Both the position numbers and the translations under genes were made by a program. A stretch of DNA of 27,490 bases from a virus, in the IMG/VR virus record IMGVR_UViG_3300009636_000029, positions 1 through 27,490 of that record. One strand, given 5' to 3'. Under the pieces are notes generated by a model, which was given only the letters and a program-made list of their open reading frames with translations, was not told the origin of the DNA and ran no database searches. Positions 5,451 through 12,227 of this stretch are shown here, in pieces; position 1 is the first letter of the stretch, and every line of letters begins with the position of its first letter.

Positions 5451-5822
5451 ATGGCGGGCACAGGTGGAAAGCGTCCAGGAGCTGGAAGACCAAGAGGGGC
5501 GAAGAGCGCACGCCCAAAATCGGCTGTGGCGAGAGAAGTAGCAAAGAAGGCATTGCGCGCCGATGTGACGCCATTGGACGTCATGCTCCGCGCGATGCAC
5601 GCTGCTTTGAAAAAAGATAATCTAAAAGAAGCTCATAATTACGCAAAAGACGCTGCGCCATATATTCATCCCAAACTGGCGGCGATGACACATTCAGGTC
5701 CGAACGGCGGACCGATCGAATACCGCAACCTGGAAAAGCTGACGGATGACGAACTGCGAGCAGCCATCGCGATCCAGCGTAAACTTGCCGCCTCTGACGA
5801 TCCTGCTGGCGGAACTAGCTAG
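5451..5822 (+). CDS. terminase small subunit-like protein
   Basis: A 123-residue product directly upstream of and overlapping the large terminase. The N-terminus is basic and Gly/Pro-rich (GTGGKRPGAGRPRGAKS), of the AT-hook-like kind seen in many phage small terminases. A helical middle (PLDVMLRAMHAALKKDNLKE, then AHNYAKDAAPYIHPKLAAM) and a C-terminal ELRAAIAIQRKLA helix follow. The role would be recognition of the phage packaging site and delivery of DNA to the large subunit. The call rests on position, size and this domain layout, which match small terminases of related phages. The ribosome-binding site is weak (GGA about 8 bases before ATG). Confidence 0.75.
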   Translation: MAGTGGKRPGAGRPRGAKSARPKSAVAREVAKKALRADVTPLDVMLRAMHAALKKDNLKEAHNYAKDAAPYIHPKLAAMTHSGPNGGPIEYRNLEKLTDDELRAAIAIQRKLAASDDPAGGTS

Positions 5823-7875
5823 GCGGGATAGGGAGCGCGACCGGCTAAACGTCGCCGCGCATGCCGATGCGATTCGCGCCCGTTGTCAAAACTTTGCCGG
5901 GTTCGTTCGCGAGGCGTGGCATATCCTCGAGCCAAATGCGACTTATGTCCATTCCTGGCACGTTGACGCGATTTGCGAGCATCTCGAGGCCGTGACTTAT
6001 GGCCAGATCACGCGTCTGCTCATCAATGTCCCGCCTGGGAGTATAAAAAGTCTTTTGGTTTCAGTTCTTTGGCAGGCTTGGGAATGGGGTCCGAAGGGGC
6101 TGCGCTCGCATCGATTCCTGACCACGGCATTTAGCGAGGGACCAGTCAAGCGCGATACTCGAAAATGCCGAGACCTCATCATGTCGGAATGGTATCAATC
6201 GCTCTGGCCAGAGGTCGAACTTACGCGAACGGGCGAAATGTCCTTCGCCAATAGCTCGACCGGCACGCGCGAGGGTGTTCCTTTTGGATCGCTAACTTCT
6301 CAGCGCGGCGACCGGCTGATTGTCGATGATCCTCACTCGACCGAAACGGCGGAATCCGAAACCGAGCGTACGACGACAACTCGCAAGTTCCGCGAGGGTG
6401 CCGTAAATCGCCTTAATGACCAGACGCGATCCGCCATCGTCGTCATCATGCAGCGCCTCCATGCCGATGATATTTCTGGCGTTATTAAAAAATACGGCAT
6501 GGAATTCATTCATCTTTGCCTGCCGATGGAATTCGAGGTTGAAACGGCATGCTCGACAGAAATAGGCTTTAGCGATCCGCGTGAGCATGATGGCGATTTG
6601 CTCGACCCGATCCGATTCCCGCGAGAGGCAATCGAAAAATTAAAGCGAGACATGGGATCCTACGCATGGGCAGCTCAATATCAGCAAAGGCCATCACCGC
6701 GCGAAGGAGGCATGTTCAAGCGGCACTGGTTCAAGATCATTGACGCCTCGCCAGCGGAAGCCGCCAAGCGCCAATGCCGTAGTTGGGATTTGGCCGGAAG
6801 CATCCCGAAGCCTGGGCGAGATCCGGATTGGACGATTGGTCTCAAAATGTCGGAATTGGAAGGAAAATTCTACATCGAGCATGTCCTTCGCATGCGCGAC
6901 ATAGGATTCGTAGTCCGACAGGCGATCAAGAATTGCGCTTCGCAAGACGGTATTCGCTGTAAGATCAGGATTCCCCAAGACGCGGCTCAAGCAGGGAAAG
7001 ACCAGGCAACCAGCATCATCGCCGAGAACGCCGGCTATGTGATCTCAGCGGATCGCGAAACTGGGGAAAAGGCCGTTCGTGCCGAGCCATTCGCCGCACA
7101 ATGCGAAGCAGGAAATGTTTATTTGGTCAAAGGCGATTGGAACGATGCCTTCATAGACGAACTTTGCGGGTTTCCTTCCGTGGCGCATGACGATCAGCTC
7201 GACGCCGCCGCTGGCGCATTTAGACGGCTGGTTACTGATTTCACGGGAGATTCGATTATTCAACGGGAATCATTGCTTTTCGACGGCCAACCCGTACTCG
7301 ACCCTATGTCCTGCAAAACCGTCTTCGCGACCATCGCGACCTCGTTCCAGAACGGAAAAACGGAAGATGCGATCGCCGTCGTTTTTTGGTCATTCGATCA
7401 GACCGAGCCAATCCCGCTCCATGTGCTTGATTGGGAAATCACGCAAATCACCGGCGATTGGTCGGGTCCGTGGCTCGCTAGCGTCTACGAGCGGTTGGTT
7501 GCTTTCGCCAAAAAGCACCTCGCGCATAATGGACCGTCCGGGGTTTGGATCGAGAACCGCGGCTCCGCGAGCGTGCTGCTTGAAGCGGCCAAGAGCCGGC
7601 GCTGGATGGCATACGCGATCGACAATAAGCTCGTAACCATGGGCACGGTCGAAAAGGCGGTGTCGGCATCGGGCTATGTCGCTTCGCACAAGGTGAAACT
7701 CACGCGCGGCGCCTATGAGCGGACTTGCTTGTATCGAGGCGTTGACCGCAATCACCTTGTGGGTCAGATTATTTCGTGCAGGATTGGCGCGAAGCAGGCG
7801 CAGCCCGAGGAAGAGTTGCTCAAGGCGTTTTTGGACGGCACGATGATCACTCTCGGGAATAGGGACGGATACTGA
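5746..7875 (+). CDS. terL: terminase large subunit with extra C-terminal nuclease-like domain
   Basis: The DNA-packaging motor. The ATPase domain has a deviant Walker A loop, NVPPGSIKS (residues 94-102), and a Walker B strand, RLIVDDP (190-196). The RNase H-like headful nuclease shows RSWDLAG (Asp348), PQDAAQAGK and HDDQLDAAAGAF (481-492). At 709 residues it is about 200 longer than the usual 450-550. The extra part (about 519-709) looks like a second RNase H-like terminase nuclease domain: a first strand before GKTEDAIAVVFW, IENRGSA in the middle and EEELLKAFLDGTMITLGN at the end. Usual acidic residues seem replaced (no Asp in the first strand, LLK where an Asp is expected), so it is probably inactive. 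The start is uncertain: ATG 5746 overlaps the small terminase by 77 bases; TTG 5785 would also fit. The TGA overlaps the portal ATG by one base. Confidence 0.92.
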   Translation: MTNCEQPSRSSVNLPPLTILLAELARRDRERDRLNVAAHADAIRARCQNFAGFVREAWHILEPNATYVHSWHVDAICEHLEAVTYGQITRLLINVPPGSIKSLLVSVLWQAWEWGPKGLRSHRFLTTAFSEGPVKRDTRKCRDLIMSEWYQSLWPEVELTRTGEMSFANSSTGTREGVPFGSLTSQRGDRLIVDDPHSTETAESETERTTTTRKFREGAVNRLNDQTRSAIVVIMQRLHADDISGVIKKYGMEFIHLCLPMEFEVETACSTEIGFSDPREHDGDLLDPIRFPREAIEKLKRDMGSYAWAAQYQQRPSPREGGMFKRHWFKIIDASPAEAAKRQCRSWDLAGSIPKPGRDPDWTIGLKMSELEGKFYIEHVLRMRDIGFVVRQAIKNCASQDGIRCKIRIPQDAAQAGKDQATSIIAENAGYVISADRETGEKAVRAEPFAAQCEAGNVYLVKGDWNDAFIDELCGFPSVAHDDQLDAAAGAFRRLVTDFTGDSIIQRESLLFDGQPVLDPMSCKTVFATIATSFQNGKTEDAIAVVFWSFDQTEPIPLHVLDWEITQITGDWSGPWLASVYERLVAFAKKHLAHNGPSGVWIENRGSASVLLEAAKSRRWMAYAIDNKLVTMGTVEKAVSASGYVASHKVKLTRGAYERTCLYRGVDRNHLVGQIISCRIGAKQAQPEEELLKAFLDGTMITLGNRDGY

Positions 7876-9434
7876 TGGGCAGCTCTCTGATCGTATCCTC
7901 GGGCATCGGCTCGCCGCTACAGCAGCTCCTCGAGGCGGACTGCATCCAGCCGGGAACGGAAAGCGGCTACGAATTATGTAAAACCATATGGGCCTATCAC
8001 ATTTTGGGACGCAAAATCGTTGAGAAACCGGTCAAAATGGCGCAGTCGCAACCGCGCGACATCGCCGTGGGGGCGGAGCCGGCCGACGAGCTGAAGCAGC
8101 GATTCATCGAAACATGGGACCGGATCGAAGCCACGCGCTATGCCCGCCTGACCATGTGCATGTCGCGGGTATATGGAATTTCGTCACTGGTCATCAAAAA
8201 GCAGGGCGAAGATCCAAAAGAGCCGCTCGACTTATGGGCGCTCAAAACAGACGATGTGGTGTTTTCCGTATTCGATCCATTGAATACCAGCGGATCACTC
8301 GTGCTCAATCAGCGTCCAAACGACATCGACTTTCAGCGCCCGCTCAGCATTCGCGTCCAAAATCAAGAATATGATATGACGCGGACGCATGTTCAGATGC
8401 ACGGAGACCCTATTTATCTGTCATATACACCGTCAGCGTTCGGCTACACCGGCAAGTCTATCTTCCTACCGATCCTTTATCCGCTCAAGTCTTTCATCGT
8501 GACGATGCGCACCGACGACTTGGTGGCGCGCAAAGCCGGCGTCTTGATCGCCAAGCTCACACAGGCGGCGTCCGGCCTTTGGGACCATACGATGCGGTTC
8601 ATTGCTGGCTTTAAGCGCAACATCATCAAAGAGGCCGAGGTCGACAATGTGATCTCGATCGATGTTCTGGAGGATATTGAGAGCCTCAATCTTCAGAATC
8701 TCGACGGCGCCCATAAAATGGCGCGCGAGCACATTCTCAGCAATATCGCGCTCGGTTCCGACGTTCACGCCAAAATTCTGGCGGACGAGGCGTTCGTCTT
8801 GGGATTCGGCGAAGGCACCGAGGACGCTCGCAACATCGCGCAGTGCATAGATAGCGTGCGCGACGATATGAAGCCGGTCTATCGATTCCTAGACGAAATC
8901 TGCATGCACTGCGCCTGGGACGAGGATTTCTACAAGACGATCCAGACGCGCCACCCCGCCGAATATGGCGACGTCGAATATCGTGACGCGTTCTATCAAT
9001 GGAAAAACTCATTCACCGCACCATGGCCAGACTTGCTCAAGGAGCCCGACTCCGAGGAGATCAAGGTCAAGGAGGTCAAATTCCGCGCCGCGGCGGCCGT
9101 GCTCCAAACGCTCGCGCCAAGCCTCGATCCAGAAAACGAAGCGACAGCCATCGCGTGGTTGGTCGACTGCATCAATCAGGAAAAGCTGCTATTCCCGGCT
9201 CCGCTCGATCTCGATATGGAAGCGCTCGAGAATTGGCTGGTCGAACGGCGCGAGCAAGAGGCCACGATGCGCGAGAGCGCGACGGAAGACGACGCGGCGC
9301 CTCTCGACAAGGAGCCGAAGCCGCCCAAGCCATTCGCCGATGCCGCGCGCCAGGACGCGCTGGTCAGCCTAAAGGATGCCATCGCGCGGCTCCCAGACCG
9401 AAAAGGCAGGCGCAGTGGCGAATCGCGCACATAA
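7875..9434 (+). CDS. portal protein (DUF1073 type)
   Basis: A 519-residue protein that, by position right after the large terminase and by sequence style, is the head portal: the dodecameric ring through which DNA is packaged. The body (about residues 15-420) has the features of the DUF1073 phage portal family: an N-terminal GYELCKTIWAYHILGRKIVE, a middle strand-rich DLWALKTDDVVFSVFDP, and a helical stem with MAREHILSNIALGSDVHAK and GFGEGTEDARN. The C-terminal 100 residues are charged and probably disordered (PLDKEPKPPKPFADAARQDA). It overlaps the terminase by one base and the following MuF gene by 20 bases if that starts at 9415. Confidence 0.85.
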   Translation: MGSSLIVSSGIGSPLQQLLEADCIQPGTESGYELCKTIWAYHILGRKIVEKPVKMAQSQPRDIAVGAEPADELKQRFIETWDRIEATRYARLTMCMSRVYGISSLVIKKQGEDPKEPLDLWALKTDDVVFSVFDPLNTSGSLVLNQRPNDIDFQRPLSIRVQNQEYDMTRTHVQMHGDPIYLSYTPSAFGYTGKSIFLPILYPLKSFIVTMRTDDLVARKAGVLIAKLTQAASGLWDHTMRFIAGFKRNIIKEAEVDNVISIDVLEDIESLNLQNLDGAHKMAREHILSNIALGSDVHAKILADEAFVLGFGEGTEDARNIAQCIDSVRDDMKPVYRFLDEICMHCAWDEDFYKTIQTRHPAEYGDVEYRDAFYQWKNSFTAPWPDLLKEPDSEEIKVKEVKFRAAAAVLQTLAPSLDPENEATAIAWLVDCINQEKLLFPAPLDLDMEALENWLVERREQEATMRESATEDDAAPLDKEPKPPKPFADAARQDALVSLKDAIARLPDRKGRRSGESRT

Positions 9435-11178
9435 CTTCACGGCGACGCTCAACGCGGCGATCAATGAAATCTGCCGGCGTGGCTTCGACCCGTCGCTTGC
9501 GGCATATTTCGCCGCGCAGATCGAGCGCGCCGCGCGCGCCCGGGTGAAGCCGCTGGTCGACATCAAAGCGAAGATGAAACGCTCGCTGATGGCGATCTAC
9601 CGGCGCGCGGTCCCGGACAATCGCGTGCCAAAGCACCACGAAGGCCTATCGCTAATCACCATGAAGCGGATCGAGCCACAGCTCAGAACCATCATGCACA
9701 ACAGAATTTTCGAGATTGACCGGCTCGTCAAAAAAAACCAGGATCAGTCAATCGAGAAAATCGAGAACAGCTTCCTTGGATGGGCGAATTCAGTCCCTCC
9801 GCAGGGCGCGGAGCCCGCCACCGCGCGCGAGACAAAGGCGGCTATCGCCAAGCAGTTCCAAAGTCTGCGCTTCGCGGAAAACCGCGTCTACGTTGATCAA
9901 TCGCATAAGTTGCGATCGAATATCGACGACGCTCTAGCGATCGAAGGTGGCGCGATCGCGCAGCAATTTCATTCGAATTGGCGTCAGGCCGGCTATAATT
10001 ACAGGCCAGACCACAAAGAACGAGACGGAAAAGTTTACCTGATCCGAGACTCTTGGGCGCTCAAGACTGGTCTAATCAAACCGGACCCACGATTGCCGGG
10101 CGGGCAGCAATACGGTGATCAGATCACGAGGCCAGGAGAGGAGGTTTTTTGTTTTCCGAAGTCAACCGAGGTCAAGCTCTTCGATCCAGTTGAGCGTGCC
10201 TATAGGCGCTTCTATTCCGGGGAACTTGTGACCATTCGAACTGCGTCCGGCGCCATTCTTGAAGCGACACCTAATCATCCAATTCTTACGGCGAATGGAT
10301 GGATCGCGATAGGCCAATTGAAGAAAGGAGATTATATAATCGAGGCTGGCGATCAGCGCGTCGATCCGCCGAAATTGGACGACAACGATGCAATCGTGAC
10401 TATCGAGAAGATATTTGGCTCGCTCTCGCTGTCCAGGCGCTTTGGCCAAGAAAGTCATCGCGGAACCATTGACGACTTCCACGGCGATGGAGCCGATGGA
10501 GATGTCGATATTATATCGTCCGCAAGCCTTTTGCGGGACAAATTTGATCCCCGCTTTGGTCAATGCCGCGCAAAGCTCGCTCTCCCCTTCGCCGACCTCG
10601 GAAAGCGTTTGTTGGCGGAGTTGAGCGCGAGCTATCGCCACTTCATCGCGCTCAACTCCATTGCGGCGCGCAGTCTGAGCCTTACTGGTTGCCGCAGCTC
10701 GATTGCGCTCAATCGCGGAAGGACAAGAATCGCGAACAATATCCATGATGATGGGAGGGGAAGCGCCAAAGGACGTGGCGATCTGACGACTGGTCTCTCC
10801 GGCCTCGTAACGCCGAATGATCTCGGCATGGTTGAGTTGCCCCGTGACAGGCTTGAGCCTTCCACCAAGGTCGATCCATCCCTTCGCGTGCCAGTTCCAA
10901 ATGGTCATAATGGAGACGCCGCAGTTCTTCGCAATGTCTTTGATAGGCGCGCCCTCTGCGCGCATTTTGTGAACGTGATCAACATCGATCGCCGACCTTG
11001 GTCTGGGCATGTTTACAACCTCCAAACGTCATCTGGATATTATGTAGCACATAGAATTATCGTTTCAAACTGCCGCTGTTGGGTCACAAGCCTGTATTCG
11101 TTGCGCGACCTAGAGCCATTCGACATGCTCACCCAAAAGGGCGTCGATGCGTTAAAGCGGACAACGGCAGGCAGTTAA
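9415..11178 (+). CDS. MuF-like minor head protein interrupted by an intein
   Basis: A minor head protein of the phage Mu gpF/SPP1 gp7 type, which sits with the portal. The N-extein (9415-10149, 245 residues) ends in RPDHKERDGKVY, WALKTGLIKPDPRLPGGQQYG and RPGEEVF. The intein occupies 10150-11070. The C-extein (11071-11175, 35 residues) starts CRCWVTSLYSLRDLEP. Joining the two gives GEEVF-CRCW, the expected conserved MuF end motif, so the mature protein would be about 280 residues. The start is placed at GTG 9415 (AGGCAGG upstream; NRAHNFTATLNAAINEICRR follows); ATG 9376 would add 13 residues inside the portal gene. Splicing would be needed for function because the intein splits the conserved Cys-rich end. 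Confidence 0.88.
   Translation: MANRAHNFTATLNAAINEICRRGFDPSLAAYFAAQIERAARARVKPLVDIKAKMKRSLMAIYRRAVPDNRVPKHHEGLSLITMKRIEPQLRTIMHNRIFEIDRLVKKNQDQSIEKIENSFLGWANSVPPQGAEPATARETKAAIAKQFQSLRFAENRVYVDQSHKLRSNIDDALAIEGGAIAQQFHSNWRQAGYNYRPDHKERDGKVYLIRDSWALKTGLIKPDPRLPGGQQYGDQITRPGEEVFCFPKSTEVKLFDPVERAYRRFYSGELVTIRTASGAILEATPNHPILTANGWIAIGQLKKGDYIIEAGDQRVDPPKLDDNDAIVTIEKIFGSLSLSRRFGQESHRGTIDDFHGDGADGDVDIISSASLLRDKFDPRFGQCRAKLALPFADLGKRLLAELSASYRHFIALNSIAARSLSLTGCRSSIALNRGRTRIANNIHDDGRGSAKGRGDLTTGLSGLVTPNDLGMVELPRDRLEPSTKVDPSLRVPVPNGHNGDAAVLRNVFDRRALCAHFVNVINIDRRPWSGHVYNLQTSSGYYVAHRIIVSNCRCWVTSLYSLRDLEPFDMLTQKGVDALKRTTAGS
10162..11010 (-). CDS. putative homing endonuclease encoded antisense within the intein
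   Basis: A 282-residue protein lying wholly inside the intein on the other strand. Residues 8-45 (DVDHVHKMRAEGAPIKDIAK, then CGVSIMTIWNWHAKGW) and 60-95 (HAEIIRRYEAGETSRQIATS and following) are two helix-turn-helix segments. Residues 138-260 look like a PD-(D/E)XK nuclease of the Vsr/EDxHD homing kind: Glu143/Glu145 (GEGESEL), GRYNIDISIG with Asp169, then SIAVEVVNGS with Glu178, then a helix and DCIVVVQF strand. GGAGG lies 8 bases before ATG 11010, and a candidate promoter lies at 11039-11068. Homing endonucleases cut intein-less alleles and let the intein spread; here the gene is on the wrong strand to be part of the intein polypeptide. That it is real and acts so is inference. Confidence 0.72.
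   Translation of the reverse strand: MPRPRSAIDVDHVHKMRAEGAPIKDIAKNCGVSIMTIWNWHAKGWIDLGGRLKPVTGQLNHAEIIRRYEAGETSRQIATSFGASPPIIMDIVRDSCPSAIERNRAAATSKAQTARRNGVERDEVAIARAQLRQQTLSEVGEGESELCAALTKAGIKFVPQKACGRYNIDISIGSIAVEVVNGSAMTFLAKAPGQRERAKYLLDSHDCIVVVQFRRIDALIASLDYIISFLQLAYRDPSIRRKNWMIRCRFKNGAGRSSNGHKFPGIEAPIGTLNWIEELDLG
11039..11068 (-). promoter_or_regulatory. candidate promoter of the antisense endonuclease gene
   Basis: Read leftward: TTGAAA (11068-11063), 18 bases, CATAAT (11044-11039), then about 20 bases to GGAGG and ATG 11010. Five of six bases match the -10 consensus and four of six the -35. The promoter sits in the codons of the intein C-terminus. Predicted only. Confidence 0.4.
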
Positions 11179-11588
11179 GCCTGCCGCGCCATGCCTTGCC
11201 TGGCCCTGCCTGTCCTCCCCATGTCTAGCCACGCCTGCCTCGCCCTTCCCCGCCATGCCACGCCTAGCCGATCCCAGCATTACCGATCCTGCCTTGCCTT
11301 TCCTATCCGAGCCAAGCCCATCCCAGCCTTGCCACGCCTGCCTTTCTCTTCCGCTCCCGGCCCGGCATCGCCCTTCCGAGCCCTGCCATGCCTGCTTTGC
11401 CGCCCCTTGCGTTGCCCTACCTCGCCAAGCCCATCCCGGCCGCTCCTCGCCTGCCATGCCTCGACGATCCAGGCCGTGCCGGGCCGCTCCGAGCCCTGCC
11501 ATGCCTGCCGCGCCTTGCCAAGCCGAGCCCTGCCTGCGTTGCCTTGCCGATCCAAGCCACGCCGATCCGTCACGCGCCTAGCCTTGCC
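11179..11588. repeat. degenerate GCCNN pentamer array 1
   Basis: About 410 bases built of GCC recurring every 5 bases or multiples (gccat gcctt gcctg gccct and so on), with few purines on the + strand. It starts directly after the MuF stop codon and ends 9 bases before the stop of the converging gene. All frames on both strands are open because 5 and 3 are coprime and stops are rare in the motif; none of these frames is credible as a gene. A second array lies at 12117-12202. Confidence 0.8.
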
Positions 11589-12116: not shown

Positions 12117-12202
12117 GCCAGCCATGCCCAGCCCAGCCGTGCCAGGCCGATCCGTGCCCTGCCTGCCTTGCCATGCCCTGCTACGCCGCGCCTTGCCGCG
12201 CC
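12117..12202. repeat. degenerate GCCNN pentamer array 2
   Basis: About 85 bases of the same GCCNN pattern as array 1 (gccat gccca gccca gccgt gccag and so on), located between the terminator of the 254-residue gene and the ribosome-binding site of the 166-residue gene. The repeat continues in the same register with a few substitutions; no gene. Confidence 0.75.
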
Positions 12203-12227
12203 AAATAAAGGCGGCTATTCAGCCGCC
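12203..12227 (-). terminator. intrinsic terminator overlapping a stop codon
   Basis: Read leftward: GGCGGCT, loop GAAT, AGCCGCC, then TTTATTT. A perfect 7-bp stem (12210-12216 with 12221-12227); the TAG stop of the 254-residue gene lies inside the hairpin. Confidence 0.8.

Follow-up and report, generated by a model that had tools for sequence, protein, structure and literature searches.

Canonical large inteins such as PI-MtuI and PI-PkoII carry a LAGLIDADG or HNH endonuclease in frame with the Hint splicing domain. The EDxHD (Vsr-like) phage homing endonucleases, exemplified by I-Bth0305I, are located within a group I intron or between two split halves; 'fractured genes', in which they separate the halves of a split intein, have reportedly been found as well. 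E. coli Vsr (1cw0, 1vsr) is a mismatch repair enzyme without helix-turn-helix (HTH) units and is not mobile. Homing genes that run antisense to a self-splicing element, and so need a promoter of their own, are represented by the antisense His-Cys homing endonuclease genes of nuclear rDNA group I introns (PMC9548176).

The locus described here lies in a 27,490-nucleotide stretch of viral DNA from IMG/VR (the window), in which an intein interrupts a MuF-type head morphogenesis gene. In our reading it is very probably a mobile intein with a homing endonuclease gene on the antisense strand that is expressed on its own, the two coding sequences overlapping in codon register. It shares with canonical large inteins the Hint fold and its block motifs, the association of mini-intein and nuclease in one mobile unit, and insertion at a conserved functional site of the host protein; however, the nuclease is here a separate polypeptide encoded on the opposite strand, with a putative promoter, Shine-Dalgarno sequence and ATG of its own, it is predicted to be of the PD-(D/E)XK type rather than LAGLIDADG or HNH, and the sense linker is its mirror, predicted to be disordered. 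The catalytic domain family is that of I-Bth0305I (profile E 6e-5, Z 8.7), but the gene lies antisense within a contiguous intein, and its product carries two N-terminal HTH units. The latter also distinguish it from Vsr, whose fold it shares over residues 137–280 (Z 10.5). As in the rDNA introns, the gene faces a self-splicing element and would need its own promoter; those introns, however, are RNA splicing elements of free sequence, whereas here both strands code for protein in register, the candidate promoter, Shine-Dalgarno sequence and ATG overlap splicing motifs, and the nuclease family differs.

In the literature searchable in full text, largely open-access papers, antisense homing genes were found in group I introns and none in inteins, in line with the original remark that no described class of this kind was known. 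The layout is apparently a widespread, unannotated and undescribed mobile intein design, and it breaks the rule that the endonuclease of an intein lies in frame inside it. We also think it likely that the inteins of tailed phages include a class, widespread and so far undescribed, in which a separate antisense homing endonuclease gene is dual-coded with the splicing domain, with start signals in blocks F and G, a promoter that shapes the penultimate residue, and expression uncoupled from the late host gene.

Anatomy of the intein and of its antisense gene

The positions of the intein and of the 282-codon antisense frame (Table 1), originally read from the letters, were confirmed on the sequence, and the frame indeed ends 12 bases inside the intein edge. 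Precursor residue C259 is the intein Cys1, block B reads TPNHPILTANGW (TPNH, following the T-x-N-H pattern), and blocks F and G read GHVYNLQT...VSN, followed by the +1 Cys; the C-terminal junction is SN|C, and the end residues are thus those of an intein. TIGR01445 matched the sense intein above its cut-off and Intein_splicing (PF14890) just under it (E 1e-7), and intein profile A6 matched solved inteins with an E-value of 3.7e-12. In the AlphaFold2 (AF2) model the two Hint parts (residues 1–70 and 271–307) display the Hint fold with pLDDT values of 87–98, and residues 172–256, with values under 50, are of low confidence and predicted to be disordered. This intein, which would splice itself out of the head protein, has no endonuclease domain of its own, as had been claimed: neither LAGLIDADG nor HNH was detected with Pfam or NCBIfam, and only Intein_splicing and Hint models matched. 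In this respect it departs from canonical inteins, whose endonuclease lies within the intein polypeptide.

Table 1. Features of the intein-bearing locus and its upstream neighbors; coordinates refer to the window
Feature	Coordinates	Strand	Remarks
Terminase large subunit gene	5746-7875		upstream of head gene; Terminase_6C
Portal gene	7875-9434		upstream of head gene
MuF-type phage head morphogenesis gene, intein host	9376..11178	+	600 aa precursor; PHROGs phrog_15127
Intein, 307 aa	10150..11070	+	Cys1 at 10150, Asn 11068-11070, +1 Cys at 11071
Sense intein linker	10381..10962	+	open, without endonuclease domain, neutral opposite HTH part
Antisense gene, predicted 282-aa HTH-HTH-PD-(D/E)XK nuclease	10162..11010	-	ATG 11010, stop 10162-10164
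Two HTH units, residues ~10-43 and 61-95	10725..11010	-	Pfam, AF2 helices
Predicted PD-(D/E)XK/Vsr-EDxHD-like catalytic core, residues 141-213	10371..10590	-	conservation, AF2, structure matches
Antisense ATG	11008..11010	-	opposite sense His codon CAT of GHVYNL
Putative Shine-Dalgarno GGAGG	11019..11023	-	8 nt 5' of ATG, opposite sense AAC CTC C (N-L-Q)
Putative sigma70-like promoter TTGAAA-N18-CATAAT, 10/12	11039..11068	-	wholly within intein, opposite blocks F/G

The two frames are in exact codon register, with antisense codon position 1 facing sense position 3, and a TTG at 11025 offers an alternative start that would give a longer antisense frame. With the sense peptide held fixed, a stop-free frame in the opposite register would arise by chance with a probability of between 3e-6 and 5e-4, according to which codon usage is assumed. 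Openness alone is nevertheless weak evidence, since 2 of 11 unrelated bacterial inteins used as controls likewise have an uninterrupted opposite-strand frame, of 390–447 codons; both of these (L226 and L227) are ribonucleotide reductase-type inteins from GC-rich genomes and gave no nuclease match. What goes beyond chance is the family-wide conservation of the antisense frame, its HTH matches in Pfam, the fold of its product, purifying selection in the antisense frame and the embedded start signals.

Two stretches of the antisense protein matched HTH_23 (E 1.2e-9) and HTH_7 (E 8.6e-9) each, and these units resemble domains of resolvases and transcription factors, with a gamma-delta resolvase-like structural match. 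An AF2 model based on an alignment of 83 window and IMG/VR sequences reached a pLDDT of 89.4 and comprises two HTH units followed by an H-E-E-E-H-E core. Over the core, profile comparisons pointed to I-Bth0305I (3r3p; E 6e-5, and 6.7e-5 with a second profile) and to 3hrl (E 1.4e-6); I-Bth0305I was also the top match in Foldseek, with a probability of 0.99 and a weak E-value of 0.017. Structural superposition with VIA-align gave Z scores of 10.5 for Vsr (1cw0), the closest solved fold over residues 137–280, 8.7 for 3r3p and 8.4 for 3hrl. Among the 83 diverse proteins G71, Y166, D169 and E178 are invariant, and E143, Q160, N167 and R197 nearly so. The core is thus of the alpha-beta-beta-beta-alpha-beta type with conserved E, D and E, homologous to the catalytic domain of I-Bth0305I, and the model is that of a Vsr/EDxHD-like PD-(D/E)XK nuclease extended by two HTH units, in agreement with what had been read from the letters. 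Within the E-D-x-H-D signature the E, D and E are conserved, but the following His is missing in the window protein (VEVVNGSA), some relatives having GG-W-H. The catalytic Lys expected behind the Glu in the canonical motif is absent (V-E-V-V), which is usual for Vsr/EDxHD-like enzymes, but makes nuclease activity uncertain. Several relatives lack the first HTH unit.

Spread of the arrangement and selection on the two strands

In a tblastn search the antisense protein matched 92 phage records with less than 60% identity, and in nearly all of them the match lies opposite a head gene. Escherichia phage Snoke is among the phages with a homologue. The full 11-sequence alignment was too divergent for scanning; two scans of IMG/VR with the subset alignments A2 and A3 instead revealed 156 and 214 stretches encoding relatives. 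With the window protein as a single query, a scan of viral contigs gave no relatives, the patterns being too specific. Genome contigs yielded 2 loci only, and a search of 398 genomes produced two full-length cases (G001, the Aaphi23 prophage, and G220/L189), the rest being mostly short single-domain partials. The relatives are 20–42% identical to the window protein, and 171 of 174 nuclease matches (172 loci) face a stop-free frame in the opposite register; where both intein ends could be placed (157 of 173), all but one are stop-free (156/157). In one copy, L050:1392-2202, the nuclease is intact and the sense linker has one stop, which may reflect an intein that is broken or contains errors, or else a split product. 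Six records matched by the sense protein only (L182–L187) were considered as related inteins devoid of the antisense gene; this was rejected, as all six carry it according to HMM searches (E 1e-53 to 1e-95).

Conservation of the antisense gene among related inteins, on which the original prediction depended, is therefore found across approximately 170 diverged phage and IMG/VR loci, with codon-level selection on the antisense frame. The layout itself proved real, but its spread had been understated, since the window represents a large family rather than a single oddity. In the phage records examined, a freestanding copy in Acinetobacter phage IME285 is the only one annotated as a gene, and the data suggest that many phage head-gene inteins annotated without an endonuclease carry one on the other strand, suppressed by gene callers.

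To identify the strand under selection, we took 15 independent pairs of closely related sequences and recorded, for each single-base codon difference and in both frames, whether it was synonymous; the counts were compared with the expectation from the same codons. In the HTH part the omega-like ratio was 0.27 for the antisense frame versus 1.07 for the sense frame, antisense being favored in 15/15 pairs. The values for the nuclease core were 0.30 and 0.68 (antisense favored in 13/15 pairs), indicating that the sense frame is also somewhat constrained there, and in the C-terminal tail, which faces Hint blocks A and B (Hint-N), they were 0.52 and 0.28, with sense favored in 10 of 15 pairs. Selection thus changes strand along the element, as expected of two overlapping genes, and the sense linker is neutral save for staying open. 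With its many members the family is a natural collection of two-strand coding, and the switch can be measured in it along a single element. The conserved 'FHGD' and 'VDII' motifs of the window linker are the codon mirror of VAVE and YNID in the nuclease; a functional sense motif FHGDG/VDVV was rejected on the same ground, being the mirror of VAVE/YNxD.

Start signals opposite the splicing blocks

Codon choice in blocks F and G is strongly biased at the positions facing the antisense start. The His of GHVYNL is encoded by CAT, which provides the antisense ATG, in 97/107 relatives versus 300/845 extein His codons (OR 17.6, p 3e-29), and the Leu of N-L-Q, opposite the Shine-Dalgarno sequence, by CTC in 93 of 110 relatives versus 857/3991 extein Leu codons (OR 20, p 1.6e-43). 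Exteins of the same loci served as the control, unrelated bacterial inteins being unusable because they lack the HVYNL motif; these p-values ignore the shared ancestry of related, non-independent loci and are optimistic.

The promoter was evaluated against 200 synonymous reshuffles, which hold the peptide fixed but not the phylogeny. Matches of at least 9/12 upstream of the antisense ATG were present in 55/101 loci (null mean 11.5, max 18), an exact TATAAT in 42/101 (null mean 6.7, max 13), and an extended -10 element, TGnTATAAT, in 20 (null 1.3, max 4). Many relatives have TTGACA-N17/18-TATAAT as the candidate promoter, with a constant spacing to the ATG; in 41 of the 53 cases checked the promoter falls entirely within the intein. 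The 10/12 score of the window promoter is a match to the consensus; an exact-pattern search made with that promoter is circular and was excluded as evidence. Judging from these codon statistics, the antisense ATG, Shine-Dalgarno sequence and promoter appear to be kept by synonymous codon choice far beyond chance. The own promoter originally proposed for the nuclease thus gains support from sigma70-like candidates embedded in the C-terminal codons of the intein.

The penultimate residue of the intein covaries with promoter strength: matches of at least 10/12 occur in 28/39 loci with a penultimate Ser versus 3/41 with His (p 1.7e-9, again computed across related loci). This suggests that the consensus -35 box has shaped that residue, Ser taking the place of the usual His.

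Insertion sites, freestanding relatives and alternative explanations

Most copies are inserted at an (N/Q)|CRC site (HPN|CRC type) of MuF proteins. Within Jerseyvirus, head genes 87–90% identical to the query of that comparison occur with and without the element, and TU03 and ER13 differ by exactly 816 bp (272 codons) at HPN|CRS; such presence and absence could also come from ordinary recombination. In Rac-SA53, approximately 40% identical to the window extein, an uninterrupted GEEVYCSC (GEEVY|CSC) corresponds to GEEVF-intein-CRC in the window. The same type of intein is present in phage dCMP deaminases, near the HAE zinc motif in one case (L070) and at the downstream PCxxC motif in another (L011), as well as in a uracil-DNA glycosylase (L141) and a terminase large subunit (L156). 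The latter two indicate that the nuclease family has changed target several times. Insertion is in frame and removal leaves an intact host protein, as seen for TU03 and ER13 and for spliced exteins whose matches to dCMP deaminase, UDG and Terminase_3 extend over the junction.

Homologues outside inteins, which the original prediction had looked to, do exist. The copy in phage IME285 (L010:455-1348) keeps the nuclease motifs although the opposite frame has 12 stops, and adjoins an intein-less head gene ending in MCKCRAK. A second one (L170:3860-4849) has an extra N-terminal Cys/His segment (CTIFPC...GFCKKHY) followed by three HTH-like units, and its neighbor is an intein-less MuF gene ending in HPGCHPRGRC. 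Each is convergent with, and just downstream of, its MuF gene. Since the tree places both among intein-borne copies, they look like escapes or site-adjacent relatives.

Beside the computed features (anatomy, spread, fold, catalytic residues, antisense selection, start signals, empty alleles and freestanding relatives), we infer splicing, antisense transcription, DNA cleavage, homing and early timing as follows. The sense strand would be translated with the late head gene, and the intein would excise by protein splicing and restore the host protein. The antisense strand would act as a complete small gene whose promoter, Shine-Dalgarno sequence and ATG are written in the codons of blocks F and G. 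In MuF genes that lack the intein, its product would bind at the conserved HPN|CRC-type site and cleave there, and repair of the cut allele would copy intein and antisense gene together, so that the whole unit spreads. Since its production would not require that the late head gene be translated, the nuclease could be made early in infection; this could explain how a selfish gene within a late structural gene can act early.

An improbable alternative is that the antisense protein is expressed mainly as a weapon that cuts the genomes of co-infecting phages, or as an HTH regulator, and not as a homing enzyme. Its HTH units do resemble those of resolvases and transcription factors, the two freestanding copies have intein-less sites as neighbors and would move no intein there, and homing-type nucleases can double as competition factors. 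However, the nuclease almost always accompanies one intein family at one main insertion site, HPN|CRC, which fits homing, as do the exact empty alleles, and homing is compatible with competition by cutting. We regard as even less probable, indeed very unlikely, that the nuclease is a passenger, responsible for homing in the past but by now largely inactive, and that the intein persists by vertical descent. A few loci have damaged frames (L050, with one stop in the opposite frame) and loss of the first HTH unit recurs among relatives, but the invariance of Y166, D169 and E178 in 83 diverse proteins and the omega-like values of 0.27–0.30 indicate that its function is maintained across the family. 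That the antisense frame is no gene at all but a GC-rich codon mirror of a conserved sense linker, as the two open control inteins and linker motifs such as FHGD might suggest, has a negligible probability in view of the synonymous excess in the antisense frame, the neutrality of the linker opposite the HTH part, the identity of FHGD as the exact codon mirror of VAVE, the motifs kept by the IME285 copy despite its 12 opposite-frame stops, the start signals apparently selected at synonymous sites and the confident AF2 fold. If the antisense gene is indeed a homing endonuclease, the family supplies new site-specific nucleases that can be tested, as well as inteins with naturally tolerant linkers.

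The interrupted gene product of the window matches head protein phrog_15127 in PHROGs (E 1.8e-54), and its extein, after removal of the intein, gives a weak Phage_Mu_F match. In Salmonella phage UPWr_S5 (L176:837-1487), an extra KilA-N-like gene precedes the intein-bearing head gene. Rfam and tRNA scans gave no matches. Degenerate low-complexity repeats resembling CNTGCC/GCCNTGCC occupy 11180-11585 (~400 bp), directly 3' of the head gene, and 12119-12210 (~90 bp); they contain no clear gene, and show a GC content of up to 0.70 with a strong GC skew.
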